Of a stretch of DNA of 42,747 nt, positions 5,344 through 42,747 are shown one piece after another. Source of the stretch: an uncultured Schlesneria sp. (GTDB lineage: Bacteria > Planctomycetota > Planctomycetia > Planctomycetales > Planctomycetaceae). A program made the position numbers and the translations under genes. The stretch's first letter is position 1. Each line of letters starts with the position of its first letter. The stretch lies in the NCBI GenBank assembly GCA_903834925.1, contig CAILLA010000184.1:1-42747 (forward strand), in the 5' to 3' direction. The notes under the pieces were generated by a model. It made no database searches and was not told the origin of the DNA. It worked only from the letters and a program-made list of their open reading frames with translations.

Positions 5344-5400
5344 TTTACATTCGTTACGCCGATCCTCAGCCGGTATAACCTTCAAGATAAATTTTTCACA

Positions 5401-19625: not shown

Positions 19626-19707
19626 AGATAAGGCTTTTTTCTAAAGACCCGGCGAGTGACCACGTAGGATTGAATTGGGACGCTGGCAGGATGATGCATC
19701 AGTTCGA

Positions 19708-20580
19708 TCAGGCCTGCGACAAGTAATTGAAAAAAACGTCCTCAAGATCAGGGGTTGCCTTTTGAAACCCGTTTCCGGGGTCCGTCTCGCTATAGATTCG
19801 CACTGACGGACTTCCCGCCACCAATTTGGTTGAAAGAATCGGCTGCGTCCAATCGCGATGTGCGAGTTGCTGCTTACTCATCGATTGAAACCAGACTTTG
19901 CCTGCCAGCGTGTTTTCTGCATCTGTGGGCGAGCCACTGAAAAGCAAACGACCTTTATCGATGATCGCCATTTGCGTGCACAGCTCTTTTACATCTTGAA
20001 CGATATGCGTCGACAAAATGACAATAATATTTTCACCGACTTCGGCGAGAAGATTGTAAAAGCGATTCCGTTCTCCAGGATCCAAGCCCGCTGTTGGTTC
20101 ATCCACAATCAGTAACTGAGGGTCGCCGAGCAGTGCCTGGGCAATTCCAAATCGCTGTCGCATTCCGCCGGAGAATGTGCTGACAGCCTTGTTTCGTACA
20201 TCTGCCAGATTCACCCGCTCCAGCAGTGTTTCCACAACCTCTTTTCGATCCTTGTTGCCGGTGCCTACACCTTTCAAGGTTGCCAGATGCATCAGCAAGG
20301 TCACGGCACTGGTACGTGGATAAACACCAAATTCCTGCGGTAGATATCCGAGGATCTGTCGGATTCGGTTCTTTTCCTTCAGAACATCGATTTCACCCAA
20401 TCGAACGGTGCCCGAGTCTGCGGTCTGCAACGTGGCAATCGTCCGCATTAAGGTTGACTTCCCTGCCCCGTTCGGGCCAAGCAACCCAAACATCCCTTTG
20501 GGAATCACCAGTGAGATCTGGTTGAGAGCACGCACACCTCCCGGATACGTTTTGCTCAGGTCTTCAATGATCAATTGCAT
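19708..20580 (-). CDS. ABC transporter ATP-binding protein
   Basis: A 290-residue ATPase subunit. The Walker A motif is GPNGAGKS at residues 35-42. The Q-loop lies in LPQEFGVYP, the signature SGGMRQ is at 137-142, Walker B and the catalytic Glu are in LLIVDEP at 156-162, and the H-loop is in LSTHIVQDV. It belongs to the broad CcmA/NatA-like class that pairs with ABC-2 permeases, and the ABC-M1 fusion directly downstream is the obvious partner. The ATG at 20580 overlaps by 10 nt the end of a truncated VOC reading frame that has a better ribosome binding site, so the ATPase may be translated by coupling. Its own upstream sequence has no clear Shine-Dalgarno. Confidence 0.95.
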   Translation of the reverse strand: MQLIIEDLSKTYPGGVRALNQISLVIPKGMFGLLGPNGAGKSTLMRTIATLQTADSGTVRLGEIDVLKEKNRIRQILGYLPQEFGVYPRTSAVTLLMHLATLKGVGTGNKDRKEVVETLLERVNLADVRNKAVSTFSGGMRQRFGIAQALLGDPQLLIVDEPTAGLDPGERNRFYNLLAEVGENIIVILSTHIVQDVKELCTQMAIIDKGRLLFSGSPTDAENTLAGKVWFQSMSKQQLAHRDWTQPILSTKLVAGSPSVRIYSETDPGNGFQKATPDLEDVFFNYLSQA

Positions 20581-25513: not shown

Positions 25514-26836
25514 ATGCCTGCCAACTGTAATCCTCAACACTTCAACAGTCTGAATCGTCGCGGCTTTCTGTCGCTTGGTCTTTTGGCTGGTACGAGTTTG
25601 ACTTTGCCGGAACTCCTTCGCAGCAATGCTGCTTACGGCGATTTGAAGGATTACAAGAACTTCGAAGGAACCGCCAAGTCGATTATTCACATTTTCATGC
25701 CAGGGGGCATGGCTCATCAAGAGTCATTCGACCCAAAGCCTTACGCACCAATCGAATACCGCGGTGAAATGGGGCAAGTCGCGACCAAGATCAGCGGCGA
25801 AGTTTTCGGTGATACGCTGGCGAAGACGGCTCAGGTTGCCGACAAGTTGACCGTGATTCGGTCGATGACCCACGGCGAAGCGGCTCACGAACGCGGCACA
25901 CACAACATGTTTACGGGGTATCGCCCTAGCCCGGCTCTGATTTACCCCTGTATCGGTTCGGTCGTCAGTCACGAATACGGTCCCCGCAATAACCTGCCGC
26001 CATACGTTTGCATTCCCAATATGCCAACGGAATTCGCCGGAAGTGGTTATCTGAGTTCAGCTTTCGCTCCGTTCAGTCTGGGAAGTGATCCCGCTGCTGG
26101 CGGTTTCAAGGTTCGCGACCTGGATCTACCTAAAGGTGTTGACGACAGCCGCTTTGCGACTCGTCGGTCGGCTCTGGAAGCGGTGAACGCTCACTTTCAG
26201 AAGAAGGAAAAGTCAGACGATCTGACCGCGATGGACACGTTCTACGATCGAGCCTACAGCCTGATCAGCTCGCCAGCTGCACGTGAAGCGTTTGATATTG
26301 AGAAAGAGCCTGCCGCAATCCGCGATGAATACGGTCGCAACACGGCAGGTGCTCGCATGTTGTTGGCTCGACGGCTGGTTCAGGCGGGTGTGCGACTGGT
26401 GAATCTGACCTACGGTGGCTGGGACATGCATAACAGCATCGTCGCTGGATTCCGCGGTCAAATGCCTGCGTTCGATCAGGCGTTTTCAACGTTGATCAAT
26501 GACCTTGATCGAAACGGATTGTTGAAAGAAACACTGGTCATGGTTTCTTCGGAATTCGGACGAACTCCAAAGATCAATGCTCAGGCGGGTCGCGATCACT
26601 ATCCTAAGGTCTTTAGCGTGGTACTGGCCGGGGGTGGAATCAAGGGTGGATATATCCACGGATCGTCGAACGCGACCGCATCGGAACCGGAAGAACTGGC
26701 AATGGGACCAGAAGACCTGTTTACGACTGTCTACCATTGCATGGGGATTGTCGCGGACAAGGAACTGATGGCTCCTGGCGATCGACCGATTGAAATTGTT
26801 GATGGCGGAAAGGTCATCAAAGAACTGTTGGCATAA
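25514..26836 (+). CDS. DUF1501 family protein with twin-arginine type signal
   Basis: A 440-residue protein of the DUF1501 family (PF07394), a branch of the alkaline phosphatase/sulfatase superfamily much expanded in planctomycetes. The N-terminus has NRRGFLSLGLLAGTSLTLPE, a twin-arginine export signal. Conserved parts are HIFMPGGMAHQESFDPKP near 58, SMTHGEAAHERGTHNMFTGYRPSP near 116, YGGWDMHNS near 301, and SSEFGRTPKIN near 348, followed by GRDHYPKVFSVVLAGGGI. These are the likely metal-site regions. GGAGA lies 8 nt upstream of the ATG. Genes of this family usually stand beside DUF1549/DUF1553 cytochrome genes, as here. The enzymatic function is not established. A hairpin element follows the stop. 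Confidence 0.94.
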   Translation: MPANCNPQHFNSLNRRGFLSLGLLAGTSLTLPELLRSNAAYGDLKDYKNFEGTAKSIIHIFMPGGMAHQESFDPKPYAPIEYRGEMGQVATKISGEVFGDTLAKTAQVADKLTVIRSMTHGEAAHERGTHNMFTGYRPSPALIYPCIGSVVSHEYGPRNNLPPYVCIPNMPTEFAGSGYLSSAFAPFSLGSDPAAGGFKVRDLDLPKGVDDSRFATRRSALEAVNAHFQKKEKSDDLTAMDTFYDRAYSLISSPAAREAFDIEKEPAAIRDEYGRNTAGARMLLARRLVQAGVRLVNLTYGGWDMHNSIVAGFRGQMPAFDQAFSTLINDLDRNGLLKETLVMVSSEFGRTPKINAQAGRDHYPKVFSVVLAGGGIKGGYIHGSSNATASEPEELAMGPEDLFTTVYHCMGIVADKELMAPGDRPIEIVDGGKVIKELLA

Positions 26837-26891
26837 CTTAACACGGGTTTTAAGCGTTCAGAGCGAACACCCAGCGAATGACGGAACATTC

Positions 26892-26970
26892 CAGGCGAGC
26901 CGGGTGCCGTCAGGTCCCGGATTATCGATTTAAAGAATCCAGGTCCTGCCAGCCGCCTGCTCGCCTTTTT
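26892..26970 (+). terminator. Hairpin family B, copy 1, with T-run after the DUF1501 gene
   Basis: CAGGCGAGCCGGGTGCCGTC starts the element at 26892. AGGCGAGC (26893-26900) pairs with GCTCGCCT (26959-26966), followed by TTTT. The left part is about 20/22 identical to the second copy at 32096. It lies 56 nt after the DUF1501 stop. Confidence 0.55.
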
Positions 26971-27019
26971 CGTATTATGTTGTCATAGAGCGCTTCACGG
27001 ATGAAGCCCTTTGGTTGAT

Positions 27020-27041
27020 GAGGTCAGGAAGACCCGCGCAG
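27020..27041 (+). promoter_or_regulatory. Hairpin box 2, upstream of the PPC-domain gene
   Basis: GGTCAGGAAGACCCGCGCAG (27022-27041), preceded by GA, matches the box at 25144-25164 except for one inserted A in the loop and one C/T change. The preceding nucleotides (TTTGGTTGAT against TTTGTTGTGT) are also similar. It lies 112 nt upstream of the PPC start. Confidence 0.45.
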
Positions 27042-27094
27042 TTCAGGGAGAAGCCTTTTTCCCTGTCGGGTTAACAGCCCCGTGCAACAAAGGG

Positions 27095-27122
27095 ACAGGA
27101 GTCCTGTTTCGAACCTGGTTCG
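27095..27122. promoter_or_regulatory. Two adjacent palindromes upstream of the PPC-domain gene
   Basis: ACAGGA-G-TCCTGT (27095-27107) and CGAACC-T-GGTTCG (27110-27122) are perfect inverted repeats separated by 2 nt, 30 nt upstream of the start codon. They could be operators or a leader structure. Confidence 0.4.
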
Positions 27123-27152
27123 ACAGACTCGTTTTTATCTGAGGCGACTACG

Positions 27153-29615
27153 ATGTTTCGTTTTGTGATGGTGATTTTCTTTTGCGGAGCGGTTCCAGCT
27201 TTCGCATCAAGCCCCGTTCTTTCGAACATTCTGCCCCGTGGTGCTCAGCGCGGCGTCGAGACCGAAGTTCTCTTCAATGGACAGCGGTTGGAAGATGCCC
27301 AGGAACTGATGATTTACGAACCGGGGATCGAGGTTGCCGAATTCGCGGTTGTGAACGGAAACCAGGTCAAAGCCAAGCTCAAGATCGCCGCCGATTGCAC
27401 TCTTGGAACAAAACATATCCGCATCCGGACAGCGAGTGGACTATCGGACCTCAGAACATTTCGCGTTGGTGCTCTTCCTAACGTGTTGGAAGTCGAACCG
27501 AATAGCGATTTCAAACAGCCTCAAGCGGTGGCAAACAACGTCACGGTCGAAGGGATTATTCAAAACGAAGACGTCGACTATTTTGTGGTCGATGCGAAAA
27601 AAGGAGACCGGATCACAGCAGAAATCGAAGGGATTCGGCTGGGTGATACGATGTTCGACCCGTATGTCGCGATTTTGAATGAAACCCGATTTGAGTTGGC
27701 CACAAGCGACGATGCGGCACTCATCTGGCAAGACGGCGTCGCTTCGATTATTGCTCCTGCGGATGGCAAATACATCGTCCAGATCCGTGAAAGCAGTTAC
27801 GGCGGAAACGGAGCGTGTTATTACCGATGTCATATCGGAAACTACCCGCGTCCTTTGGCAATTGTCCCTGCCGGAGGTAAACCCGGTCAGAAAGTCGCGG
27901 TCAAATTTCTTGGCGACATTTCGGGTGAATTCACTCGCGAGTTTGATTTACCTGCCAAAGCGGGATCAGATTTCGCCGTGTTTGCCACCGATGATAAAGG
28001 GATTTCGCCATCGGGTAACCGCTTCCGTGTTGTTGATCTAGAGAACTCGCTGGAACAGGAACCGAACGAAAACATCGCGCAAGCCACGAAGGCTGCGGCA
28101 CCGATCGCATTTAATGGCGTGCTTTCTTCGAAGACCGATGTCGATTTCTTCGGTTTTACTGCGACAAAAGGTCAGACATTGGAAATTCACGTGTGGGCCA
28201 GACGTTTGCGATCAGAACTTGACTCGGTGCTGATTCTTTACAATGCGCAGGGTGGTGCGATTGCCAGCAACGACGATAACGGAGGGCCAGACAGCTTCAT
28301 CCGATTCGCGGTTCCCGCCGACGGAGAATATTTTCTTGAGGTTCGCGATCACCTTCGACGCGGTGGCAATGCATTCCATTACCGGATCGAGGTCAGCCCG
28401 CTCGTTCCAGAAGCACTGCTTGGTGTGAATGAGTTCGTACAGTATGTCGAACCAAAGGTCGCGATACCTCAAGGGAACCGATTTCCGTTGCTGGTCAACG
28501 CCAATCGTGTTGCATTCGGCGGTCATCTGGATTTCAAGGGCCTGGATCTACCGGCTGGTGTGACGGTCGAATCGTTCGGAATGTCAGCGGATCAGGGGGT
28601 GGCACAGGTCATTCTCGCTGCGGCACCAGAGGCACCCGTCGCTGGTCGGTTTGCTCAACTGGTCGGGGCGTTAGCCGATCCGAATAATCCGACCCCTCCA
28701 TCAGGAGAAGTTCGGCTTCCGACAGTTCTCGTCAGAGGTCAAAACAACATTCCATTCTGGACCGAACCGACTTATTCGCTGGCAATGACAGTCACGCAAA
28801 AGGTTCCCTTCACGCTACAGATTGTCGAGCCAAAGGTCCCGCTTGTCCAAGGCGGTCAGATGACTTTGAAGGTTGTCGCCACTCGCGAAGGTGACTTCAA
28901 AGCACCAATCAAAATCGAATTGATATTGAACCCGAATGGAGTCAATTCCAGCCGTGAAATCTCGATTGCTGAAGGGCAGACCGAGGCCCTGATTTCTTTG
29001 AATGCCGCCGGGAACGCCCAGGTAAAAGAGCACAAGATCTGCGTTCGAGGCGAAGCGACTGTCGGCAACGGTCCGGTCATGGTCTGCTCGCCGTTTGTGA
29101 ATCTGCGAGTCTCCGAACCGTATTTAAAGTTTACGTATGAAGCGGCTGCCGTCGAATTGGGGGCCGAAACTGACCTTGTGGTGAAACTGGAAGCACCCAA
29201 GCCGTTTGAAGGGGATGCAACAGTTCAATTACTTGGTCTTCCCAACAAAGTGACAACGACTCCTTCGAAATTTAACAAAGATGCGAAAGAACTTGTCTTC
29301 AAAGTGAAGGCCGAAGCGGATGCGGCCCAGGGAGTTAACAAAAGTCTGTTTTGTCAGGTTGTCGTCACGGAAAACGGTGAACCCATCATTCACAATATTG
29401 GAACCGGTCAGATCCGGGTGGATAAGCCATTGCCACCGAAGGTCGCAGCGGCACCGGTTGCTCAGGTCGCCACACCAATGCCTGAACCGACAACTGCGCC
29501 GGCAAAGAGGTTGACGCGACTTGAGCAATTGCGATTAGAACAAGAACAACGGGTAAAAGCCTTAAATGGGGCTGCACCAGCGGGCGAAGCGAAGCCGGCC
29601 AGTGGACAACAATAA
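27153..29615 (+). CDS. Secreted protein with two PPC (pre-peptidase C-terminal) domains
   Basis: An 820-residue exported protein with signal peptide MFRFVMVIFFCGAVPAFAS. An N-terminal IPT/TIG-like beta domain (VLSNILPRGAQRGVETEVLFNGQRL) is followed by two PPC domains. The first is at about 112-227, beginning VEPNSDFKQPQAV with DVDYFVVDAKKGDRI. The second is at about 300-417, beginning QEPNENIAQATKA with DVDFFGFTATKGQTLEIHV and GEYFLEVRD. Further beta-sandwich regions follow, then a Pro/Ala-rich charged tail (LTRLEQLRLEQEQRVKALN). No catalytic domain is visible, so it is probably a binding or structural partner. GAGGCGA lies about 8 nt upstream of the ATG. The next gene starts 33 nt after its stop and is probably co-transcribed. 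Confidence 0.92.
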   Translation: MFRFVMVIFFCGAVPAFASSPVLSNILPRGAQRGVETEVLFNGQRLEDAQELMIYEPGIEVAEFAVVNGNQVKAKLKIAADCTLGTKHIRIRTASGLSDLRTFRVGALPNVLEVEPNSDFKQPQAVANNVTVEGIIQNEDVDYFVVDAKKGDRITAEIEGIRLGDTMFDPYVAILNETRFELATSDDAALIWQDGVASIIAPADGKYIVQIRESSYGGNGACYYRCHIGNYPRPLAIVPAGGKPGQKVAVKFLGDISGEFTREFDLPAKAGSDFAVFATDDKGISPSGNRFRVVDLENSLEQEPNENIAQATKAAAPIAFNGVLSSKTDVDFFGFTATKGQTLEIHVWARRLRSELDSVLILYNAQGGAIASNDDNGGPDSFIRFAVPADGEYFLEVRDHLRRGGNAFHYRIEVSPLVPEALLGVNEFVQYVEPKVAIPQGNRFPLLVNANRVAFGGHLDFKGLDLPAGVTVESFGMSADQGVAQVILAAAPEAPVAGRFAQLVGALADPNNPTPPSGEVRLPTVLVRGQNNIPFWTEPTYSLAMTVTQKVPFTLQIVEPKVPLVQGGQMTLKVVATREGDFKAPIKIELILNPNGVNSSREISIAEGQTEALISLNAAGNAQVKEHKICVRGEATVGNGPVMVCSPFVNLRVSEPYLKFTYEAAAVELGAETDLVVKLEAPKPFEGDATVQLLGLPNKVTTTPSKFNKDAKELVFKVKAEADAAQGVNKSLFCQVVVTENGEPIIHNIGTGQIRVDKPLPPKVAAAPVAQVATPMPEPTTAPAKRLTRLEQLRLEQEQRVKALNGAAPAGEAKPASGQQ

Positions 29616-29648
29616 TCAGTGAAGTCGAAGCAACTTAGGGACTGTGAA

Positions 29649-32084
29649 ATGCGTCGGATTTCTTTATACATGCTGGCACTTGCGTTCGTGACCACCGGCT
29701 CGTTCGGTGCGGTTGCGAGTGCCGATTCGTCACTGGTGCAACTCAATGTCTATCCTCCAGACGTCAACCTGACGACGTCGAGGGATCGTCAGCGAGTTGT
29801 GGTTCAGGCAGTTCAAGCCGACGGGATTACTCGTGATGTCGGGAAAGAAGCGACCTTTACGCTCGCGAATCCCGATCTTTGCCGTCGGGACGGGACCACG
29901 TTTTATCCGATCGCTGATGGTCAGACCGAATTAAAGGTCGAATATGGCGGCAAAATGCTGTCAATTCCTGTAAAAGTCGAACGAGCTGCCGAATCCAGAC
30001 CAATCAGCTTTAAGCTGGACGTGATGCCAGTCTGGATGAAAACCGGTTGTAATACGGGGAGCTGTCACGGTGCCGCGCGTGGTAAAGACGGATTTCGGTT
30101 GTCGCTGTTCGGATTCGATCCCGATGGTGATTACATGCGAATTACTCGAGAGCTGCCAGGTCGCCGAATTGACCTCGCTGTTCCCGAAGCCAGCTTATTA
30201 ATCGAAAAGTCAATCGGTGTTGTGCCACACACGGGCGGCAAGCGGTTCGAACGCGACTCGGAACTTTGTAACACTCTCGTCGAATGGATCAACGCCGGTT
30301 GTCCTAAAGATCCTGCCGAAATCGCGACTTGCGTGGGGCTTGAGATCTATCCACGCGACGGAGTGCTCGACGGTGAAGGAATTCAGCAAGCCGTTACGGC
30401 ACGAGCCAAATATTCCGACGGTACAGACCGCGATGTCACGTCGCTGGCGCTCTTCCTTTCCAACAACGATACTTCGGCATCGATTTCACCTGACGGAATT
30501 ATCACGGCGGGTGCTCGGGGTGAAGCCTATGTCATGGCACGGTTCTCGACGTTTACCGTCGGGTCACATTATGTGGTTCTGCCAAAAGGTCTCGTCTATG
30601 AAGACACACCAAAGCCGCAGGTCAATTACATCGACGAACTTGTCAATCTAAAGTTGAAAAAGCTTCGTATCGACCCGTCAGGTCGAGCCTCCGATGAAGC
30701 GTTCTTGCGACGTGCGTTTGTCGATCTCGTCGGTCAGGTTCCGACTGAAGAGGAATACAATCGCTATATGTCGAGCACGGAACCGGGCAAGCGAGACAAG
30801 CTGATTGACGAACTGTTGTCTCGCAAAGAGTTCACCGAAGTTTGGGTGAGCAAGTGGGCCGAATGGTTGATGATGCGTTCATCGAATCAGACGAGCCCCA
30901 AATCGATCACGCTGTATTACACATGGCTGAGTGAGCAGATCGCCGATAATGTTCCGCTCGACAAAATGGTACGCGGTATCCTTGGAGCCAGCGGCGGAAC
31001 ATTCAAAAACCCATCGACCAACTTCTATCAAATTGAGCCTGACGTCCTGAAGGTCAGCGAGAACGTCGCCCAGATTTTCATGGGAATGCGAGTCCAATGT
31101 GCCCAGTGTCACAATCATCCGTTCGACCGCTGGACGATGGACGACTATTACTCGTTCGCAGCCTTCTTCAAGCAGGTTGGACGCAAGCAGGGTGAAGATT
31201 ATCGCGAAACGATCGTCTTCAATGCTGGCGGTGGTGAGGTGAACCATCCGGTCGGTGGTCGAGTGATGCCGCCTGTGTTTCTGGGTGGCGGACCCGCAGA
31301 CGTGGCGGGAAAAGATCGCCGTGAAGTGCTGGCCGACTGGCTCGCATCGCCCCGGAATCCATACTTCGCTCAAAACTTCGTAAACCGCATCTGGCACCAC
31401 TTCTTTGGGATTGGAATTGTTGAGCCGGTTGATGATGTTCGTATCAGTAATCCCGCCTCGAATGATCCGTTGTTAATTGAGCTGGCCAAGCGATTCACCG
31501 AGTCGAATTATGACTTCAAGGCGTTGGTCCGTGATATCTGCCGTTCGGAAGCTTACCAGCGATCAACCGAGAAAAATGCAAGTAACGCAACGGACGAACG
31601 AAACTTCGCCTCGCAAACTTTGCGTCGGATCAAGGCCGAGTCGATGCTTGACATCATCAGCCAGGTGACAAGCACCCAGGACAAGTTCCCCAAGCTGCCA
31701 TTGGGATCTCGCGCCGTTCAAATCGCGGACGGAGCCACCAGCACCTACTTCCTGACAACATTTGGTCGAGCGACTCGTGAGACCGCATGTTCGTGTGAAG
31801 TGAAAATGGAGCCGACACTTTCGCAGGCTTTGCATCTGCTGAACGGCGATACGTCCAATCAGAAGATTCAGCAGGGAGGTGTGATTGCCGCTTTGCAAAA
31901 AGAACAACTGCCCCCCGATCAGATCATCGAGAAAATGTATGTCCGTTGTCTCAGCCGAAAACCGCAGCCAGAAGAATTGGCAGCATTAAAGCCGCTGTTT
32001 GCGGAAGGAAGTGATGTCAATCGATCATTGGATGATATCTTCTGGGCACTGCTGAACAGTCGCGAGTTTTTGTTCAACCATTGA
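29649..32084 (+). CDS. Exported DUF1549/DUF1553 protein with two c-type haem motifs
   Basis: An 811-residue protein with a signal peptide (MRRISLYMLALAFVTTGSFGAVASA). A first Ig-like (Big_2) domain is at about 30-115, then a cytochrome-like segment whose attachment motif has four spacer residues: C134-NTGS-C139-H140 in CNTGSCHGAARGKDGFRLSL. A second Ig-like region follows (YPRDGVLDGEGIQQAVTARA). DUF1549 (PF07583, PSCyt2) starts near 332 and contains C484-AQ-C487-H488 in CAQCHNHPFDRW. DUF1553 (PF07587, PSD1) runs from about 555 to the end, with NRIWHHFFG and CEVKMEPTLSQALHLLNGD. I start at 29649 because AGGG lies 8 nt upstream and the signal peptide begins there; the GTG at 29619 adds ten polar residues. 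The molecular function of these planctomycete families is unknown. Confidence 0.93.
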   Translation: MRRISLYMLALAFVTTGSFGAVASADSSLVQLNVYPPDVNLTTSRDRQRVVVQAVQADGITRDVGKEATFTLANPDLCRRDGTTFYPIADGQTELKVEYGGKMLSIPVKVERAAESRPISFKLDVMPVWMKTGCNTGSCHGAARGKDGFRLSLFGFDPDGDYMRITRELPGRRIDLAVPEASLLIEKSIGVVPHTGGKRFERDSELCNTLVEWINAGCPKDPAEIATCVGLEIYPRDGVLDGEGIQQAVTARAKYSDGTDRDVTSLALFLSNNDTSASISPDGIITAGARGEAYVMARFSTFTVGSHYVVLPKGLVYEDTPKPQVNYIDELVNLKLKKLRIDPSGRASDEAFLRRAFVDLVGQVPTEEEYNRYMSSTEPGKRDKLIDELLSRKEFTEVWVSKWAEWLMMRSSNQTSPKSITLYYTWLSEQIADNVPLDKMVRGILGASGGTFKNPSTNFYQIEPDVLKVSENVAQIFMGMRVQCAQCHNHPFDRWTMDDYYSFAAFFKQVGRKQGEDYRETIVFNAGGGEVNHPVGGRVMPPVFLGGGPADVAGKDRREVLADWLASPRNPYFAQNFVNRIWHHFFGIGIVEPVDDVRISNPASNDPLLIELAKRFTESNYDFKALVRDICRSEAYQRSTEKNASNATDERNFASQTLRRIKAESMLDIISQVTSTQDKFPKLPLGSRAVQIADGATSTYFLTTFGRATRETACSCEVKMEPTLSQALHLLNGDTSNQKIQQGGVIAALQKEQLPPDQIIEKMYVRCLSRKPQPEELAALKPLFAEGSDVNRSLDDIFWALLNSREFLFNH

Positions 32085-32094
32085 TGTTAGGCAT

Positions 32095-32133
32095 TCAGGC
32101 GAGCCGGGCGGCGTCAGCCCTCGGCTCACCTGA
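32095..32133 (+). repeat. Hairpin family B, copy 2, after the DUF1549/DUF1553 gene
   Basis: TCAGG-C-GAGCCG at 32095-32106 pairs with CGGCTC-A-CCTGA at 32122-32133 (one C/A mismatch). It starts 11 nt after the stop codon. The left part, CAGGCGAGCCGGGCGGCGTC, matches the copy at 26892. No T-run follows directly. Confidence 0.6.
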
Positions 32134-32254
32134 ACTATAGTTGTCGATATGATCATTATTTACGAATCCGATGATTCCTGAATTCAGGCGAAACGGATCC
32201 CAAAAGAGATTTTTGATAACCGTCGAATTGATTGCGGTCGCGGAGTTGTTTGTT

Positions 32255-34510
32255 ATGCGTTCCTTCTGTGTTTGCCTGATTGTCATGAGTCTGCTCGGGA
32301 ATATCGTTGCTGCAGAAGAGAAGGCAGCTCCGAAGGACGAAAAGATCACGTTCGACCAGCACATACTTCCAATCTTCCGCGAGAAGTGTGGATCGTGCCA
32401 TAATGCAAATGACAAGAAGGGCGATCTCGTTCTGGACAATTATGGCCTTGCAATGCAAGGCGGTGCTTCGGGCGAGGTTGTTCGGACTGATGGTGATGCG
32501 TCACAGAGTCAGCTGTACCTGGTCGTTGCCCATCTCGCCGAACCAAAGATGCCCCCTCAGCAACCGAAGCTGCCTGATGAACAGCTGGCATTGATTCGCA
32601 AATGGATTGAAGGAGGATCACTCGAAAACAGTGGCAGCAAGGCCAAACCGAAGAAGAACATGGCCGTGTCGAAGGTAACCGTTTCCAACCAAAGGCCTGC
32701 TGGTCCACCGCCGATGCCGGAAAGTCTGCCACTTGAGCCGCTGGTGCTGTCCAGCCGGGGTAATGGGACGACGGCACTCGCCGCAAACCCCTGGTCACCG
32801 TTGATCGCGGTTTCTGGACACAAACAGGTGATCCTGTACGACACTCGAACCCGAGAAGTCGCCGGCGTGCTGCCATTTCCAGAAGGGGTGGCTCACGTGC
32901 TGAAGTTCAGCCGGAATGGCCAATGGCTGTTGGCTGGCGGGGGACGTGGTGCCCATTCGGGTAAAGTCGTTCTGTGGGACGTTAAGACCGGGAAACGAGT
33001 CGCCGAAGTGGGATCCGAATACGACGTCGTTCTGGCCGCAGATATCAGCCCTGATCATACTCAAGTGGCGTTAGGCGGACCTAAGAAGATCGTTCGTGTC
33101 TACGACACGTCGACGGGCGAATTGCTTTACGAAAAGAACAAACACACCGATTGGATCACAGCATTGGAGTTCAGTCCCGACGGTGTTCTGTTGGCGACAT
33201 CCGATCGCAGTAACGGTCTGATTGTGTGGGAAGCATTCACAGGGCGTGAATTCTACGTATTGACCGGGCATACCGCCGCAGTCACCGATGTGAGCTGGGC
33301 ACCGGACAGCAATGTTCTCGCCTCATGCAGCGAAGATACAACGATTCGCCTGTGGGAAATGCAGAACGGTGGACAGATCAAGAACTGGGGTGCTCATGGT
33401 GGTGGAGTCACCGCGGTCGAGTTCACACGAGACAACCGCATTGCTTCGACGGGTCGAGATAACACGGCGAAGTTGTGGGATATCAACGGCGGTGCGATAC
33501 GAGGTTTTCCTGGGTTGGGCGATATTGGGATGGAAGTCACTTTCGATTCCGAAAATGATTTTATGGTGGCAGGTGATTTGACGGGAACAATCCATATTTG
33601 GAACGCCAAAGACGGAGCCGTGATTGGTCAACTGAACACCAACCCTCCTCCTCTGGCCAAACAAATTGAAGTTGCCACACAAGCTCTGGCGGCAATTGAA
33701 CCGACGGCGAATCAGGCAGCAGGGAATCTTGCCGCGTTGAGCAAGGTGATTGCTGATCGAAAAATGGCGGCAGATGCTGCGACCAAAGTGGTGGCCGAAG
33801 CAACCGCCGTTGTGGAAGCGATGACCAAGTCCAAGGCCGAAGCCGATGCGGACGTGGTCGCGAAAACACAGGCGTTGCAAACGGCAGAAGCAAACATGAC
33901 GGCTGCTCAAGCTGCGTTGTCCAAGGCGGCAGGCGAGCGTGAAGCGACTAACAAAGCTGTCGCCGATTTGCGACTGAAAACCAAGGCATTCGCAGACGCC
34001 GTCACTGCTGCAGAGGCCGAGGCGACACAGGCTCTGGCTGCGTTTGAGGCAAAGCCTGATGACGCGAATGTGAAAGCGGCCAATCTCGCGGCGAACAAAA
34101 AGCTGGCTGACGCGTTTGCCGCGTTGTCCGATGTGACGAAGCAATCGGCCACTGCCGTTGTGGAAGTGCCGACGAAAAGCGAAGCTCTGGCTTCGACCAC
34201 AGCGACGTTGAATGCCGCGAAAGCGGCTCGTGAAAAAGGTGCAACCGACAAGGCTGCTTCCGAAAAGGCGGTCGTCGACATTGCCGCGAAACTGAAAGCC
34301 TGGACCGATGTGGCCGCTGTTGCGAAAGCCAATGCAGATAAGGCAGCGGCAGAGGCAAACGTTACACCGGAACAGCAAAAGCAATTGGCCGACGCAGAAT
34401 TGGCCGCAAAGGCTTCGATGGACAAAGTGGTCGCATTGAAGGGTCAGATCGAACGGTTGAATGCGGCCAAAGGTCGCTCGTTTCAAACAGCAAATGTGAC
34501 TTCCAACTGA
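32255..34510 (+). CDS. Exported cytochrome c (PSCyt1) - WD40 protein with Ala-rich coiled-coil tail
   Basis: A 751-residue protein. It has a signal peptide (MRSFCVCLIVMSLLGNIVAA), then a planctomycete cytochrome C-type domain (PSCyt1, PF07635) at about 25-130 with C45-GS-C48-H49 and a possible axial Met in EPKMPPQQPKL. A WD40 beta-propeller of six to seven blades lies at about 170-470 (VVLWDVKTG, IVRVYDTSTG, LIVWEAFTG, TIRLWEMQNG, TAKLWDINGG, TIHIWNAKDG). The last 270 residues are almost entirely Ala/Lys/Glu/Thr heptad-like sequence, a probable long coiled coil. I start at 32255, with GGAG 9 nt upstream, so that the signal peptide is N-terminal; the frame is open to 32171. It follows the DUF1549/DUF1553 gene and likely interacts with the same exported complex. 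Confidence 0.92.
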   Translation: MRSFCVCLIVMSLLGNIVAAEEKAAPKDEKITFDQHILPIFREKCGSCHNANDKKGDLVLDNYGLAMQGGASGEVVRTDGDASQSQLYLVVAHLAEPKMPPQQPKLPDEQLALIRKWIEGGSLENSGSKAKPKKNMAVSKVTVSNQRPAGPPPMPESLPLEPLVLSSRGNGTTALAANPWSPLIAVSGHKQVILYDTRTREVAGVLPFPEGVAHVLKFSRNGQWLLAGGGRGAHSGKVVLWDVKTGKRVAEVGSEYDVVLAADISPDHTQVALGGPKKIVRVYDTSTGELLYEKNKHTDWITALEFSPDGVLLATSDRSNGLIVWEAFTGREFYVLTGHTAAVTDVSWAPDSNVLASCSEDTTIRLWEMQNGGQIKNWGAHGGGVTAVEFTRDNRIASTGRDNTAKLWDINGGAIRGFPGLGDIGMEVTFDSENDFMVAGDLTGTIHIWNAKDGAVIGQLNTNPPPLAKQIEVATQALAAIEPTANQAAGNLAALSKVIADRKMAADAATKVVAEATAVVEAMTKSKAEADADVVAKTQALQTAEANMTAAQAALSKAAGEREATNKAVADLRLKTKAFADAVTAAEAEATQALAAFEAKPDDANVKAANLAANKKLADAFAALSDVTKQSATAVVEVPTKSEALASTTATLNAAKAAREKGATDKAASEKAVVDIAAKLKAWTDVAAVAKANADKAAAEANVTPEQQKQLADAELAAKASMDKVVALKGQIERLNAAKGRSFQTANVTSN

Positions 34511-35630: not shown

Positions 35631-37868
35631 TTATGGCGTCGGCAGGCTATCACTAACGACAAACGCCGCTGGGGGGTTGCCTGCAACATGGCTTTCCCAC
35701 ATTGAGCGATAGGCACGTTCGAGATTCCGAACAAAGCTTGGTGTGTCAAAGAGGGGCGAGGTCAGTCGGTTCTCGGCGAGCCGGTCACGGTAACTTTTTA
35801 GCTCGTCGGGGTTATTGGCAAGGTGGACTGCCAGATGTTGGTAGTGGTCCAGATCGGTTGCGATCAATTCTGGTAAACCGACTGTTTTCAGCAGGCTCGC
35901 CCCAATGCGTGAACCGAACGTGTCACCCAGACACGAGATGACAGGCAACCCCATGAGTAACGACAAACTAGCGGTAGCGGCTGCATTGTAGAGCAATGTA
36001 TCCAGAAAAAGGTCTGCTGCGCAATGACGGATCTTGTGATCAGGACGAGGCATCCATTCGGCAAACACCAGTCGTTCGGATGCGACTCCGCATGCCTTTG
36101 CTTCGCGGCGCAGATTCTCTTCGAAAATTGATCCCGTTGAATGTAGCCACAAGACGCTGCCAGGAACTCGATTCAGAATGTTCATCCAGACATGGAACAT
36201 CTGCGGTTCAATCTTGTAGGCACCGTTAAAACTGCAAAAGACGAATCCGGTTTCGGGAAGTCCGTAACGTCTGCGATCGACCTTTTGATTGACAACAACA
36301 AGGTCTGGTTCCGCAATTAGATAGGAATGAGGCATCGTCGCAAATTTTTCGACGAAGTACGGTTCAAACTCGGGCGGCGTTACCGTCGGGTCGGTGATCA
36401 GGTAATCGATGAAATCGGCACCAATCGTGCCAAGCATCCCAAGAAAATTGACCTGGATCGGTGCGGGTCGTAAGGCGAATGCGGCCATTCGATTGATGCC
36501 TGTATGCCCCATCAGGTCAACGAGAATATGAATGCCGTCTGCGGCGATTCGATCCGCAAGAGCCGGGATCGACAGCCTGCTGACGTCAACAAAATGTTCG
36601 CATTCGGCAACGATCCGTTGCCGGTAAACGCTATCGTCGACCTTTCCGAATCCATAGGCGAATATTTCGAAGCAGGAACGATCATGACAACCAAACAGCC
36701 CCTGGATCAGATGGCTGATGGGGTGATCATAGAAATCTCCAGAGAGATATCCGATACGAATCCGATCGGTGTGAATGCGTGGCGGATGTGAACGTTGTCG
36801 CTCAATTCCCCGTTCGCGGTTTCTTTTGACAATCGCATCACAATGACTTCGGGCGATGACCAATTGCCGCTCAAGCGACCAGGGAAGCGTTAGCGCCTGA
36901 AAAGGCGTCACACAAGGAGTGTGACCTGCGGCCAACGCTTTGGTGGCGTCTGCCCAAAGCCGTTCTCCTTCAGCGTCATAATTTCGCCAGTCGCAGATCA
37001 TCTGGCGAGCACAGCAAAGGCGAGCGAATGCTTCCGCACGTTCGGGCTGAATTGCCAGAGAACGCTCCAGTGCAGACAGTGCAGGTGCCCAGTCACCTTT
37101 CAGAATCAGAAGATTTCCCAACTGCTGCTGAATCTCGGCATCGTCAGGCTGAAGTCGTGCCGCTTCCTGATAGGAAGCGAGGGCGGCATAGTCCTGTCGC
37201 AGTAGTTCCTGAACTTGAGCCAGTTGGACAAACGCCCTTGCATAAGTCGGACGTAACTCAATGGCTCGCTGAAATTGTCCGGCAGCACCAGTTGGATCAC
37301 CCTGCAATTGCAGGATGGTACCTAAGTTGAAATGAGCTTCGGGGTAATCTGGTTTGATTGAAAGAGCCTGACTGAAACAAGCTGCTGCGGATTCGAATTG
37401 AGCCTGAGCTTGAAGGACAGCGCCGAGATTATTGTGTGCGATCGCATAGCGAGGGTTAAGGCGTACGGCTTCAGCGAAACTGTTGTGTGCTTCGGCAAGA
37501 TTTCCCAAAGAGTGTTGCAACCGACCAAGGTTATTGTGACCCCGTTCGTAGGTCGGGCGTAATGCCAGAGCCTGATGAAAACAGGCGAGAGCTTCGTTTC
37601 TTTTATTAAGCGTGATGTAGACTTCGCCCAACGCGTTGATGAACACCGCATTGTCCGGTGCCAATTGAACGGTCTTCTGAAACAGCTCCATCGCTGGTTG
37701 TGTTTGGCCAACATCCAAAGCGATCACGCCCAACAGGTAAACCGCTTCTGGAACAGCGGGGACTTGCTGTAGAATCTGGCGACACAATCGTTCTGCAGTA
37801 GTCAAATCCCCCGCCTGATAACGGCGATAGGCCTCGTCTCGCAGCATCTCGACCTGGGCTTGTTGCAT
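35631..37868 (-). CDS. TPR protein with SPINDLY/O-GlcNAc-transferase-like (GT41) domain
   Basis: A 745-residue protein. Residues 1 to about 290 are at least seven tetratricopeptide repeats (for example YERGHNNLGRLQHSLGNLAE, YPEAHFNLGTILQLQGDPTG). After a linker, the GT41 domain begins near 350 with RIRIGYLSGDFYDHPISHLI, where the HP pair matches the catalytic-region histidine of the family. It continues through ILVDLMGHT, PAPIQVNFLGMLGTIGADFIDY, VFCSFNGAYKIEP and LGDTFGSRIGASLLKTVGLPELI. Family enzymes transfer a sugar from a nucleotide donor to protein Ser/Thr; here donor and target are unknown. The nucleotide-binding segment LYNAAATASLSLLMGLPVIS differs somewhat from the common NGHTTTSDALWAG form. 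It is divergent from the next glycosyltransferase gene across 142 bp. Confidence 0.92.
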   Translation of the reverse strand: MQQAQVEMLRDEAYRRYQAGDLTTAERLCRQILQQVPAVPEAVYLLGVIALDVGQTQPAMELFQKTVQLAPDNAVFINALGEVYITLNKRNEALACFHQALALRPTYERGHNNLGRLQHSLGNLAEAHNSFAEAVRLNPRYAIAHNNLGAVLQAQAQFESAAACFSQALSIKPDYPEAHFNLGTILQLQGDPTGAAGQFQRAIELRPTYARAFVQLAQVQELLRQDYAALASYQEAARLQPDDAEIQQQLGNLLILKGDWAPALSALERSLAIQPERAEAFARLCCARQMICDWRNYDAEGERLWADATKALAAGHTPCVTPFQALTLPWSLERQLVIARSHCDAIVKRNRERGIERQRSHPPRIHTDRIRIGYLSGDFYDHPISHLIQGLFGCHDRSCFEIFAYGFGKVDDSVYRQRIVAECEHFVDVSRLSIPALADRIAADGIHILVDLMGHTGINRMAAFALRPAPIQVNFLGMLGTIGADFIDYLITDPTVTPPEFEPYFVEKFATMPHSYLIAEPDLVVVNQKVDRRRYGLPETGFVFCSFNGAYKIEPQMFHVWMNILNRVPGSVLWLHSTGSIFEENLRREAKACGVASERLVFAEWMPRPDHKIRHCAADLFLDTLLYNAAATASLSLLMGLPVISCLGDTFGSRIGASLLKTVGLPELIATDLDHYQHLAVHLANNPDELKSYRDRLAENRLTSPLFDTPSFVRNLERAYRSMWESHVAGNPPAAFVVSDSLPTP

Positions 37869-38010
37869 GATAACGTCTCAAGGGGATTCGTAACCCGGCG
37901 TCCAAAAACAATTAGAGTGAAGATTCGACCTGAATGGCTTGGGTACGAAAGTTCTTTCTTGACGATTGTCTCGTTACAGTGATCCGAAAAACAATCGAGG
38001 GCTGGCGTTA

Positions 38011-39915
38011 ATGTTGATCGTTCAAGTCTGTGATTTCGGCAACGACGGTGATGCAGAGTATCGAATGCACGCGCCACTTCGCCAGTTGGGGAAAATCCCC
38101 GGCGTAATCACGATCGATTGCCATTTTTCGCATCGCCATTTACCCGCATTGGCGGAATTGGCCGATGTTCTGGTGGTTCAGTTTATCAATGACTGGGAAC
38201 TGCTTTCACTCTGTCAGCATCGTCGTGAAGCAGGTCTCATCACCGTCTTCGAAGCGAACGACTACTTTTTTGATCTGCAACCTTGGAGTCCGATTGGTGA
38301 AGCCTGGCTGGATCGAACAGTGCAGGAACTGTATCTCAAGTGGCTGATCACGGCGGACGGCGTCCAGACTAGCACCGGTGAACTTGCACGGAAATGGCGG
38401 GAACGAGGAGCGACGGACGTCGCTGTTTTTCCTAATCAATTAGTCGCGATCGATCCCTTGCCAGACATGCCGAATCGACCGCTGACGGTCGGTTGGGGAG
38501 GTTCTCCCGGGCATTTTGCCGACTGGTATCAATTATCACCTTTGTTGACGAAGTGGCTGGCGGCTCATCCTGATGTCCACCTTTCGGTGATGACTCACGA
38601 GTTGGCCCATTCTTTCGTTCAACTTGAACCGCATCGTTATCATTTCACAAAATTTGGATCGCTAAGCGATTACGTCCGATTTTTGAGATCTCTCGATATC
38701 GGCCTTGCGCCTTTGATACCGACGGACTACAACCGCGGCCGATCCGACGTGAAGTTTCTGGAGTACGCGAGTCAGGGCGTTGTGGGGATTTACGCCGACC
38801 TGGAGCCGTATCAATCGAGTGTTACACAAGGCGTGACCGGACTGTTGAGCCAAAGTCCGGAACAAATGATCGAACAGCTGGAGTCATTGTGGTCGGACCC
38901 GGACTTTCGCGCTAGGCTTCGTAATCAGGCTTACGAATATGTTGCGAAACATCGTCAGCTGTCTGACAACGCCAGTCAACGTATCGATTGGTATCGGAGT
39001 TTGCTCAGGCGACCGGTGAATTCGAGTCTGTCCTTGCCAGAGTCTATTCAAGATGCTGCGACCACCCGCGAGGAGAATTATTGGCAGTTGCGACCGGGGG
39101 AACCCGAGCGATTATTTCTCGCGAATACTCAATTGGCGGATAAGCACATCGCAATTCAACGCCTGACTCAACAAATGAATGCCGAACCAAATTATGTGGC
39201 TGCTCTTGCGCGTCTGGGTCAGCTTCTGAATGACGTACGTGAACATCAACAGGCATTTGCGGTTCTCGAACGTGCCCGTCATTTGGCACCGAAAAGCCCT
39301 CGTGTTCTCAGTGAAATCGGTCGAACATGGTTTTGTTCAAACGATGTGATCCAGGCGAGACTTGCACTTGAACAGGCGCTTGAGGCCGATTCGAACCATC
39401 TTCCCGCCTGGCAATACTTGTTGCGTTTGCTGGCGTTAATCAAAGCCGCCGACGGTCCACAATGGGGGCGGCGCGCTGAAGAACGTTTTCCGATCTGTTA
39501 TCCGATCACGCTGCTGGCGGCTCAATTGTACCCTCCGAGCGAATCCCTTAAGGCGATTCACCGAGTGATCGACCGGTTTGATTCGACACTGGTTCCGCGA
39601 GAACGGGAAACAGCACTTCGTGCGATTCGCCAAGTCCTGACGACATCGTTTCTGTCCACGGCGAACCAGCCTGAATTGATTCCATTACTGCGCCGTGCCT
39701 GCGAAATCTTTCCCGAATCGGCATGGCTGGCAAATGAATTGGGTTCCGCCCTCTCTCGATCAGGTGAGTTTCGCGAGTCGTACTTCTACCATTCATTGGC
39801 CATGCAAATGCGTCAAAAGGCAACAACTTATCGCGAAGAATTTCCCACACAGGAAGCGAATCCCTGGCCGTGGCAATTCGCTGATCACATTCAACAACAC
39901 GCTCCACGAGCTTAG
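38011..39915 (+). CDS. Glycosyltransferase (GT4-like) with C-terminal TPR region
   Basis: A 634-residue protein. Residues 1-335 resemble a GT-B glycosyltransferase: MLIVQVCDFGNDGDAEYRMH at the N-terminus, VFEANDYFFD near 83, DGVQTSTGELARKWRERGA near 120, LTVGWGGSPGHFADW near 168 and a C-terminal lobe with LDIGLAPLIPTDYNRGRSDVKFLEYASQGVVGIY, the usual donor-binding E-x-x-x-x-G region. From about 360 the protein is built of TPR-like helices (YVAALARLGQLLNDVREHQQ, SPRVLSEIGRTWFCSNDVIQ). I start at 38011 (GAGGG about 10 nt upstream), not at the TTG at 37966. It is divergent from the GT41-type gene and followed by a TIGR03032 gene, an arrangement suggesting a shared glycosylation pathway. Sugar and acceptor are unknown. 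Confidence 0.88.
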   Translation: MLIVQVCDFGNDGDAEYRMHAPLRQLGKIPGVITIDCHFSHRHLPALAELADVLVVQFINDWELLSLCQHRREAGLITVFEANDYFFDLQPWSPIGEAWLDRTVQELYLKWLITADGVQTSTGELARKWRERGATDVAVFPNQLVAIDPLPDMPNRPLTVGWGGSPGHFADWYQLSPLLTKWLAAHPDVHLSVMTHELAHSFVQLEPHRYHFTKFGSLSDYVRFLRSLDIGLAPLIPTDYNRGRSDVKFLEYASQGVVGIYADLEPYQSSVTQGVTGLLSQSPEQMIEQLESLWSDPDFRARLRNQAYEYVAKHRQLSDNASQRIDWYRSLLRRPVNSSLSLPESIQDAATTREENYWQLRPGEPERLFLANTQLADKHIAIQRLTQQMNAEPNYVAALARLGQLLNDVREHQQAFAVLERARHLAPKSPRVLSEIGRTWFCSNDVIQARLALEQALEADSNHLPAWQYLLRLLALIKAADGPQWGRRAEERFPICYPITLLAAQLYPPSESLKAIHRVIDRFDSTLVPRERETALRAIRQVLTTSFLSTANQPELIPLLRRACEIFPESAWLANELGSALSRSGEFRESYFYHSLAMQMRQKATTYREEFPTQEANPWPWQFADHIQQHAPRA

Positions 39916-40010
39916 GTTTCGAGTCAACGGAATCCGGCCATGCCATGAAAATCACGATCAGCAGTTGTTTCTTATCGTGCCTTACCACGTTAAATTGAGT
40001 GAAACATTAC

Positions 40011-41177
40011 ATGGCCGATGCCAACGAGCGGGCCTCGTTAAAATCCCCTTCAGGTTCTTCGATGATGTCACAACCCAATGAAGCGATGGTTTCGAGTCAA
40101 TCGACTAATGACACGGCCCAATCAAATTCTTCCGACCAACCTTGGGTGGAAATTTACGGATCTCGAGGGCTCGCTCCGTGGCTGGTCAGCAAGCGTACAA
40201 GCCTGGCATTCAGCACGTATCAAACTGGAAAGCTCTTTCTCGTTGGAACCAGTCCTGACGGGGGGCTTTCGATTTTTGATCGGACATTTAATCGCGCGAT
40301 GGGAATGTGCGGTGACGGACAATCGTTGTGGCTGAGTACCAAGTATCAGTTGTGGCGATTCGAAAACGCGCTCGCTGCCGGCGAAATCCATCAGGGTCGA
40401 GACCGGCTGTATGTGCCGAGAATTGCCTATACAACTGGGGATATTGACCTGCATGACGTTGTTGTCGAGGATTCGGGTCGGGTTGTCTTTGCGGCGACGT
40501 CGCTCAGTTGTTTGGGGACTGTCAGTCAACGATTCAGTTTCCAGCCGCTGTGGCGTCCACCATTTATCAGTAAACTTGTTCCGGAAGATCGCTGTCATTT
40601 GAACGGCTTGGCCTTGCGCGATGGACGAGCTCGTTATGTGACAGCGGTTTCGCGAAGCGATGTGGCTGACGGTTGGCGGGCTCGTCGCAATGACGGCGGG
40701 GTCGTTATTGACATCACCACAAACGAGATTGTCTGCGATCGGCTATCGATGCCGCATTCTCCGCGGTGGTATCGTGATCAGTTGTGGGTCTTAAATTCGG
40801 GGCGAGGCGAATTCGGGCGAGTCAATCTGGCAACTCGCACTTTCGAACCGCTTGCGTTCTGTCCCGGTTATTTGCGAGGACTGACATTTGTTGATGACTA
40901 TGCAATTGTCAGTCTTTCCCAGCCTCGGCACGATAAGACGTTCAACGGCTTGGCCTTGGATGACGAACTGGCCAAACGAGATGCCGTCGCCCAATGCGGT
41001 TTACAGGTTATTGATCTCAAAACGGGAGATATCGCCCACTGGCTGAAAGTGGAAAACTCAGTTACGGAGATCTATGACGTCGTGGCACTCCCTGGGTCTT
41101 TACGTCCGATGTCGCTTGGGTTAAAGAACGACGAGATTGAGCGGCTATTGGTTCTTGATCAGCCAGGCCAGCTCTGA
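40011..41177 (+). CDS. TIGR03032 family protein
   Basis: A protein of about 388 residues of the TIGR03032 family, often found near TPR proteins and glycosyltransferases. The conserved part starts near residue 45: PWVEIYGSRGLAPWLVSKRTS, then LAFSTYQTGKLFLVG, CGDGQSLWLSTKYQLWRFEN, DLHDVVVEDSGRVVFAATSLSCL, HLNGLALRDGRARYVTAVS, LSMPHSPRWYRDQLWVLNSGRGE and FCPGYLRGLTF. These read as beta-propeller blades. The function is unknown. The start is uncertain: GTG 39999, ATG 40011 and ATG 40062 are in frame before the domain, none with a clear Shine-Dalgarno. The first 45 residues are Ser/Asn-rich and probably disordered. The gene ends 23 nt before the convergent endonuclease/exonuclease/phosphatase gene. 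Confidence 0.88.
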   Translation: MADANERASLKSPSGSSMMSQPNEAMVSSQSTNDTAQSNSSDQPWVEIYGSRGLAPWLVSKRTSLAFSTYQTGKLFLVGTSPDGGLSIFDRTFNRAMGMCGDGQSLWLSTKYQLWRFENALAAGEIHQGRDRLYVPRIAYTTGDIDLHDVVVEDSGRVVFAATSLSCLGTVSQRFSFQPLWRPPFISKLVPEDRCHLNGLALRDGRARYVTAVSRSDVADGWRARRNDGGVVIDITTNEIVCDRLSMPHSPRWYRDQLWVLNSGRGEFGRVNLATRTFEPLAFCPGYLRGLTFVDDYAIVSLSQPRHDKTFNGLALDDELAKRDAVAQCGLQVIDLKTGDIAHWLKVENSVTEIYDVVALPGSLRPMSLGLKNDEIERLLVLDQPGQL

Positions 41178-42644: not shown

Positions 42645-42665
42645 TTCGTCTCGGTTTTGCCGCCG

Positions 42666-42747
42666 GAGAGGTGGCTGAGTGGCCGAAAGCACCGCTTTGC
42701 TAAAGCGGCGTCTGGGTATTCCCCGGACCCAGGGTTCGAATCCCTGC
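42666..42747 (+). tRNA. tRNA-Ser (anticodon GCU), 3' end cut by the window
   Basis: The sequence starts with GGAGAGG, the normal tRNA-Ser acceptor strand. The anticodon arm is CCGCTTTGCTAAAGCGG with anticodon GCT. A long variable arm (CTGGGTATTCCCCGG region) is typical of class II serine tRNAs. The T-arm starts CAGGGTTCGAATCCCTG, and the window ends before the 3' acceptor strand. Confidence 0.95.

Follow-up and report, generated by a model that had tools for sequence, protein, structure and literature searches.

A four-gene block encoding DUF1501, PPC and cytochrome proteins is inherited as a unit in Planctomycetes and probably forms one redox unit

Within a stretch of 42,747 nucleotides from an uncultured Schlesneria sp. 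(hereafter "the window", meaning the whole stretch of DNA analysed), taken from a genome of 9.02 Mb in 307 contigs, we investigated four adjoining genes encoding a DUF1501 protein, a pre-peptidase C-terminal domain (PPC) protein, a PSCyt2–PSD1 protein and a cytochrome c with WD40 repeats. These four genes form a single inherited unit, kept by nearly all the relatives sampled. Because many Planctomycetes and some Verrucomicrobia maintain them side by side in an unchanged order, they probably also form one redox unit. The set is of a known, uncharacterised kind, since a conserved DUF1501 module of the Planctomycetes–Verrucomicrobia–Chlamydiae (PVC) bacteria is already in print, and the new details reported here refine that kind. 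The four genes are as follows:

25514..26836, + strand: gene 1, DUF1501 protein of 440 amino acids (Pfam PF07394, E 1.4e-111) with a twin-arginine-type N-terminus
27153..29615, + strand: gene 2, exported PPC protein of 820 amino acids (Pfam PF04151, E 4.1e-15)
29619..32084, + strand: gene 3, Ig-like/PSCyt1-like/Ig-like/PSCyt2 (DUF1549)/PSD1 (DUF1553) protein of 821 amino acids with two haem motifs
32171..34510, + strand: gene 4, PSCyt1 cytochrome c with WD40 repeats and an Ala-rich tail, 779 amino acids (Pfam PSCyt1, WD40)

The genes follow each other head to tail on the + strand, separated by 316, 3 and 86 bases. A previous sequence-only reading of the window had described four adjoining large exported proteins of these families, and the open reading frames (ORFs) lie exactly where it had placed them, with Pfam in agreement. 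A 15-residue hydropathy scan combined with inspection located a hydrophobic segment near the N-terminus of all four products, preceded in the DUF1501 protein by R15-R16, in line with the twin-arginine signal previously read there; the same scan identified no membrane-spanning segment beyond the N-terminus in any of the four. The true starts of genes 3 and 4 are likely the ATGs at 29649 and 32255, respectively, from which the hydrophobic segments would become N-terminal.

Conservation of the block was followed across 59 genomes (its own and those of 58 relatives), searched with the PPC and cytochrome-WD40 proteins at E<=1e-60, each of which found a match in 55 of the 59. Set 1, composed of the window and L039-L090 (53 orthologous loci), carries all four genes on one contig in 48 loci, each from a different genome, with identical order and strand in 48 out of 48; in one of these (L079, also among the 64 tree rows below) the DUF1501 gene is cut by a contig end. 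Four others of the 53 loci (L043, L053, L085, L087) are cut by contig ends, and the remaining one (L080) is a solitary PPC gene. Counted per genome, 48 of the 59 hold the set, eight hold pieces at contig ends (G004, G019, G022, G024, G025, G028, G030 and G051, with G019, G028 and G030 assigned by search coordinates only) and three (G009, G041, G043) gave no PPC or cytochrome-WD40 match at E<=1e-60. Within 8 kb of the available flanks, the most frequent flanking gene family occurs in 10 of the 48 complete loci, 43 of which have at least 2 kb of flank on both sides, and another is present in nine; the conserved block therefore ends at the four genes. Chance clustering was rejected as an explanation, with the order kept in 48 loci versus at most 10/48 for any flanking family. 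Sixteen further complete sets are paralogous, including three (L094, L108, L109) ordered cytochrome-WD40, DUF1501, PPC, PSD1.

Gene trees were computed with FastTree for the 64 complete sets and set against a label-permutation control of 20 permutations. Of the alignments used in the analysis, A1, A2, A3 and A5 comprise 71, 68, 42 and 45 rows after some had been left out. Set 1 is split from its paralogues in the DUF1501, PPC and PSD1 trees, with supports of 0.96, 1.0 and 0.998, and forms a clade in the cytochrome-WD40 tree except that L102 joins it (0.90). Of the splits supported at 0.9 or more, 26/37 to 33/42 are shared from one tree to another, compared with at most one under permuted labels, and the distance correlations between gene trees range from 0.82 to 0.93 in set 1 and from 0.90 to 0.98 in the rest. 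Mismatched subfamily phylogenies had been named beforehand as the observation that would undo the idea of a single machine; the four trees were found to agree largely, and this test did not refute it. What stands of this idea is the inheritance as a unit, visible in the order, the strand, the four-gene boundary and the matching trees, and the agreement of the trees is to be read as a sign of joint inheritance rather than of contact.

The distribution of the set beyond close relatives was approached through a draw of 195 genomes from the phylum, which covers the PPC match (E<=1e-60) only, and not orthology or the other genes. A match was obtained in 44 of the 195, of which 27, with the own genome counted, belong to the same class or closer and 17 to other classes; the 20 listed out of the 151 unmatched genomes are all from other classes. 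Among the named loci (the best 80 of 578), the complete set is present in canonical order in 54, three have the cytochrome-WD40 gene inverted upstream (Verrucomicrobia loci L215-L217) and contig ends interrupt 21; L199 is without the cytochrome-WD40 gene and L210 without PPC or set-type DUF1501 genes, despite enough flanking DNA. Several of these contigs, with the same gene order, are titled Verrucomicrobia or Verrucomicrobiota, and if these titles are right, the unit extends past the Planctomycetes. Part or all of the set was also observed on contigs titled Candidatus Kuenenia, Bacteroidales and Akkermansia muciniphila (L171, L193, L206, L208, L218), titles that may be wrong because A. muciniphila is described without the DUF1501 module in a passage of PMC4960237. 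For the gene 3 product, the nearest named match listed is a contig of an uncultured Schlesneria sp. metagenome-assembled genome (MAG), 93% identical, and nearer records are possible.

The redox character proposed for the unit rests on genes 3 and 4, in which the following sites were delineated:

31098..31112, + strand: CxxCH haem motif C494-H498 of PSCyt2 in gene 3, invariant in 64/64 and 68/68 sequences
30048..30068, + strand: CX4CH haem motif C144-H150 (C144-x4-C149-H150) of the hidden PSCyt1-like domain in gene 3, in 148/150 proteins
32387..32401, + strand: CxxCH haem motif C73-H77 of PSCyt1 in gene 4, with C73, C76 and H77 invariant in 64/64
32549-32551, + strand: M127 of gene 4, candidate axial Met, with M127-P128-P129 invariant in 64/64

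Two products with c-type haem motifs had been announced from the sequence, and CxxCH is indeed present in genes 3 and 4, together with a CX4CH in gene 3 that had not been listed; in both genes the motifs stand in cytochrome domains and mark predicted haem sites. The gene 3 protein lies above both Pfam cut-offs for PSCyt2/DUF1549 (E 4.4e-45) and PSD1/DUF1553 (E 2.4e-43), and both profiles match all 42 set-1 proteins scanned. Its CX4CH belongs to a hidden domain, uncalled by Pfam, that aligns with the PSCyt1 of gene 4 (hhalign probability 96, E 2.3e-9; all hhalign E-values given here are those of single pairwise comparisons), with probabilities of 0.1 and 0.5 in the controls with a PPC segment; PSCyt2 and PSCyt1 align at a probability of 52 over 18 columns only. 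The hidden domain is without the methionine, and its invariant H204 is a candidate haem ligand. CX4CH is taken as a haem-binding motif in a passage of PMC10734462. The 150 proteins mentioned above comprise sets 1-3 and the named loci, to the exclusion of the 24 PSD1 proteins of own-genome loci L114-L138, and the two without CX4CH are both cut by contig ends. The motif is not universal in PSD1, 10 of these 24 own-genome proteins being without it. AlphaFold2 single-chain models cover genes 1 and 3, and that of gene 3 has a mean predicted local distance difference test score (pLDDT) of 89.2. By sequence, gene 3 matches a Teneurin-like protein of the PDB (E 3.6e-15) with its best stretch at 236-314, in the Ig-like part. 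Among the 50 PDB matches listed we recognised Ig-like, S-layer and other proteins with low template modelling (TM) scores and none for the helical PSCyt2-PSD1 core, although this does not prove that none exists, the aligned ranges being absent from the output. In gene 4, Pfam places PSCyt1 at residues 73-130 (E 2.1e-10) and detects the WD40 repeats (E 1e-33), followed by an Ala-rich tail that, judged by eye, is probably helical.

Genes 3 and 4 also appear to be linked by fusion. An extra N-terminal PSCyt1 with CxxCH is fused to gene 3 in eight Verrucomicrobia-type loci (Pfam E 4.8e-13 in L199 and 3.4e-15 in L213), and no cytochrome-WD40 gene was found in the available DNA of the fused loci L199, L206, L207 and L210, L206 and L207 being cut on one side. 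The tail of gene 3, for its part, has a distant relationship to DUF1800, which elsewhere accompanies DUF1501. Searching the genome with the DUF1800 Pfam profile returned the true DUF1800 genes plus PSD1 proteins at E 1.9e-4 to 7e-4, and the profile matches 21 of the 42 set-1 gene 3 proteins at E<=0.05 (best 2.9e-5); at 15.3 bits (E 0.012) versus a cut-off of 26.1, gene 3 of the window falls outside DUF1800 proper and is related to it at most. PSD1 and DUF1800 align at an hhalign probability of 42, rising to 86 with a broader alignment (E 5.3e-6, ~210 C-terminal residues), compared with control probabilities of 0.1 for DUF1800 versus DUF1501 and 0.2 for DUF1800 versus PPC. Passages of PMC5122149 report DUF1800 and DUF1501 in one operon in Proteobacteria, some beside chitin synthase genes, and neither CxxCH nor CX4CH occurs in the 12 DUF1800 proteins examined. 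From the PSD1-DUF1800 kinship and the DUF1501 pairings, it follows that the partners beside which DUF1501 recurs are related to one another, some having haem and others not.

The DUF1501 protein itself is a clear member of its family (373.9 bits versus a cut-off of 27, over positions 1-390 of PF07394). Its AlphaFold2 model (mean pLDDT 87.5) retrieved in Foldseek, among the 50 matches listed, only alkaline-phosphatase-superfamily entries by title (best E 6.6e-7), namely sulfatases, alkaline phosphatases and lipoteichoic acid synthases. No convincing solved relative was found by sequence (best PDB match E 0.12). A sulfatase reference was drawn from 30 own-genome loci, 21 of which have an ORF bearing the motif and 15 of which were used; the DUF1501 profile aligns with these 15 sulfatases at a pairwise E of 9.9e-8, over the C-terminal region only, and the local alignment brings E347-F348-G349 onto the sulfatase D-N-G. 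Foldseek titles and hhalign thus both place the protein in the superfamily fold, supporting the view that DUF1501 is a sulfatase relative with an alkaline-phosphatase-superfamily fold. Conservation was then read from 199 distinct sequences, left from 215 matches after removal of short and duplicate ones and including five that adjoin DUF1800, and two features stand out:

25886..25888, + strand: codon of H125, the histidine in the sulfatase nucleophile register, in 199/199 sequences
26423..26599, + strand: candidate metal ligands D304, H306, E347, D361 and H362, by conservation in the 199 sequences

Four hhalign runs of the forced-long type superpose H125 on the CSPTR Cys, and a helix begins at residue 125 in the model, as expected at the nucleophile position, where the nucleophile helix starts. 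In the register given by these forced-long alignments, the Cys, Ser or Thr of a nucleophile is thus replaced by His throughout. D304, H306 and H362 are present in 199/199 sequences, E347 in 198/199, and D361 and F348 in 196/199 each; H125, D304, H306 and H362 are also kept in the five proteins adjoining DUF1800. Because of the invariant His in the nucleophile register and of E-F-G in place of D-N-G, ordinary sulfatase chemistry is unlikely, and the conserved residues may form a metal site that includes H125. The phosphatase-like fold proposed earlier therefore holds as far as superfamily fold and sulfatase kinship are concerned, but not as a working phosphatase, given this invariant His. Similarly, the PPC domains proposed for gene 2 are confirmed in kind (E 4.1e-15) but not in the plural, only one PPC stretch passing alone. 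A solved relative of this protein was sought by sequence and rejected (best PDB match E 0.78).

The same domains recur in other arrangements within the 9 Mb genome (G000), in which we counted 127 DUF1501, 89 PSD1, 75 PSCyt1 and 37 sulfatase-profile matches. PSCyt1 lies at most 3.2 kb upstream on the same strand for 53 of 87 PSD1 matches, and DUF1501 at most 1.5 kb downstream for 60 of 87. These common pairs resemble the window set in their domains and in having DUF1501 beside PSD1. They have PSCyt1 just upstream of PSD1 and DUF1501 after it, whereas the window set has PSCyt1 on the WD40 protein, an added PPC gene and DUF1501 first. In the window set and in the C209 set, DUF1501 is upstream of PSD1 with PPC in between.

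We give about even chances to the block encoding a single haem-coupled metalloenzyme complex located in the periplasm of PVC bacteria. In such a complex, DUF1501, exported in folded form by twin-arginine translocation, would be the catalytic metal subunit, on which the DUF1800-like half of gene 3 would dock. Electrons would pass between the DUF1501 site and three haems, two in gene 3 and one in gene 4, whose WD40 cytochrome would connect to the respiratory chain, and the PPC protein would serve as scaffold or ligand-binding subunit. As a guess, the substrate could be an envelope or external glycan. It is a tentative and rather doubtful proposition that this would constitute a new class of redox-coupled periplasmic enzyme, uniting a sulfatase fold, a nucleophile turned histidine metal ligand, a haem-bearing DUF1800 offshoot and a WD40 cytochrome leading to respiration; if true, DUF1800-DUF1501 operons without haem, as in other bacteria, would represent simpler relatives of this class.

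Several observations weigh against a fixed, haem-coupled four-part complex. The query TM-scores of the DUF1501 matches are low (0.27-0.43), and the register of H125 comes from an alignment outside the confident local core rather than from a solved structure. Agreement between trees is what plain co-inheritance would equally produce, label permutation being the only control used, and the cytochrome-WD40 gene of L102 falls with set 1, unlike the other three genes of that locus, possibly reflecting an exchange between sets. Fused forms are few (8/150), and the fused loci L213, L215, L216 and L217 keep a separate cytochrome-WD40 gene. The eight fused proteins are 56-94% identical (90-94% for L206, L207 and L210), and being related they represent fewer than eight independent fusions, perhaps a single event. 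The integrity of the set is also broken in places: no set-type DUF1501 or PPC gene lies alongside gene 3 in L207 and L210, the best PPC match of the L210 genome lying elsewhere; a second set-1-like copy in G017 (L080) consists of the PPC gene alone, without the other three genes alongside; and in G051 (L091, about 3509-6974), ~3.5 kb with other ORFs separates gene 3 from gene 4. Finally, the DUF1800 kinship lies mainly in the C-terminal part, with the window protein scoring below the Pfam cut-off, and at least some DUF1501 pairs can do without haem, because all 12 DUF1800 proteins examined are without a motif.

Against the haem-coupled complex, a conventional module for sulfated or phosphorylated polysaccharides could be proposed, in which DUF1501 would hydrolyse esters with the cytochromes as accessories. 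Such a module would agree with the sulfatase and alkaline phosphatase matches of the DUF1501 model, with the alignment of its profile to own-genome sulfatases (E 9.9e-8) and with the sulfatase genes often located near PSCyt genes in freshwater Verrucomicrobia MAGs, as mentioned in passages of PMC5615132. We nevertheless consider it unlikely, given the His in the nucleophile register of 199/199 sequences, the D-N-G that reads E-F-G with F348 in 196/199, and the lack of any flanking family in more than 10/48 set-1 loci, although no search aimed at glycan-degrading neighbours was made. Rather than in catabolism, the set could also act in the cell plan or in the unusual endomembranes of compartmentalised PVC cells, as the preferential presence of the DUF1501 module in compartmentalised PVC species would suggest (passages of PMC4960237 and PMC4452313 citing Kamneva et al. 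2012). The distribution of the PPC match (E<=1e-60), found in 55 of the 59 genomes first searched and in 44 of 195 genomes of the phylum draw (27 of the same class or closer, 17 others), is also compatible with such a role. The published association is, however, a correlation, and neither a membrane-spanning segment past the N-terminus (hydropathy scan) nor a membrane-remodelling domain (Pfam) was detected in the products, making this role quite improbable in our view.

Similarly low is the probability that the four exported proteins are co-transcribed for regulation only, without forming a complex. An operon alone would explain both the linkage and the tree agreement, and it would accommodate the reordered paralogous sets (L094, L108, L109), the inverted cytochrome-WD40 gene of L215-L217 and the occurrence of gene 3 without an adjoining set-type DUF1501 or PPC in L207 and L210. 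It fits poorly with PSCyt1 being carried by gene 4 or, through fusion, by gene 3, and with the recurrence of the PSD1-DUF1501 pairing in 60 of 87 own-genome cases.

Around the block, a convergent ScpA gene lies downstream (Pfam). Promoter-like sites numbered 3 versus a shuffle mean of 5.4, showing no excess, and terminator-like sites 15 versus 11.3 (standard deviation 3.6); a claim on promoter and terminator architecture was dropped, these counts not being set apart from shuffles. Elsewhere in the window, positions 35631-41177 encode a TPR-glycosyltransferase family 41 protein, a second TPR-glycosyltransferase-like protein and a DUF4915 protein (E 5.8e-136). The minus strand at 16020-20580 encodes a large protein that matches both an ABC-2 membrane family and M1 peptidases, adjoining an ABC ATPase gene, and a tRNA match at 42665-42747, cut by the window end, was called by Rfam and not by ARAGORN.

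The abstract of Kamneva et al. 2012 reportedly suggested membrane targeting and electron transport for the DUF1501 module. This module is placed in PVC species with intracellular membranes in passages of PMC4452313 and PMC4960237, both citing Kamneva et al. 2012, and PMC5122149, which cites by number, presents the DUF1501 system as a conserved machinery of PVC bacteria. The earlier suggestion of an undescribed system is weakened by these three descriptions. Other passages place DUF1501 among the neighbours of planctomycete WD40 genes (PMC5587647), suggest a redox function for the PSD1/PSC2 domains, with 41 of each in R. baltica (PMC2754498), or describe PSCyt/PSD genes in freshwater Verrucomicrobia, whose functions are said to be unknown and for which a link to carbohydrates is suggested (PMC5615132). 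In the open-access literature searched, the passages concerned assign no function to DUF1501 or PSD1, and those of PMC2754498, PMC4452313, PMC4960237, PMC4982196, PMC5122149, PMC5587647, PMC5615132, PMC5945725, PMC7563939, PMC8567305, PMC10734462 and PMC11495043 report no tested function.

Compared through the citing papers, the window set shares with the module of Kamneva et al. 2012 a DUF1501 gene, neighbours with signal peptides, a PVC host and an uncharacterised function; the hidden CX4CH domain, the DUF1800 kinship, the cytochrome fusion and the His in place of the nucleophile come from the present analysis. The DUF1800-DUF1501 operons of Proteobacteria, as they appear in PMC5122149, are alike in pairing DUF1501 with a partner distantly related to PSD1 at its C-terminus, but differ in the missing haem motifs (12/12 DUF1800 proteins examined) and in the proximity of some pairs to chitin synthase genes. 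With the sulfatase/alkaline phosphatase superfamily, DUF1501 shares its predicted fold and, in the C-terminal motif region, a similarity of sequence, and it departs from sulfatases by the His aligned at the nucleophile position and by E-F-G for D-N-G. Being kept as a four-gene unit by nearly all the relatives sampled, the window set is a good starting point for addressing the function of DUF1501 and PSD1. Specific tests follow from the substituted active site, from the hidden cytochrome domain and from the DUF1800 kinship, and they would also apply to the DUF1501-DUF1800 operons of other phyla.

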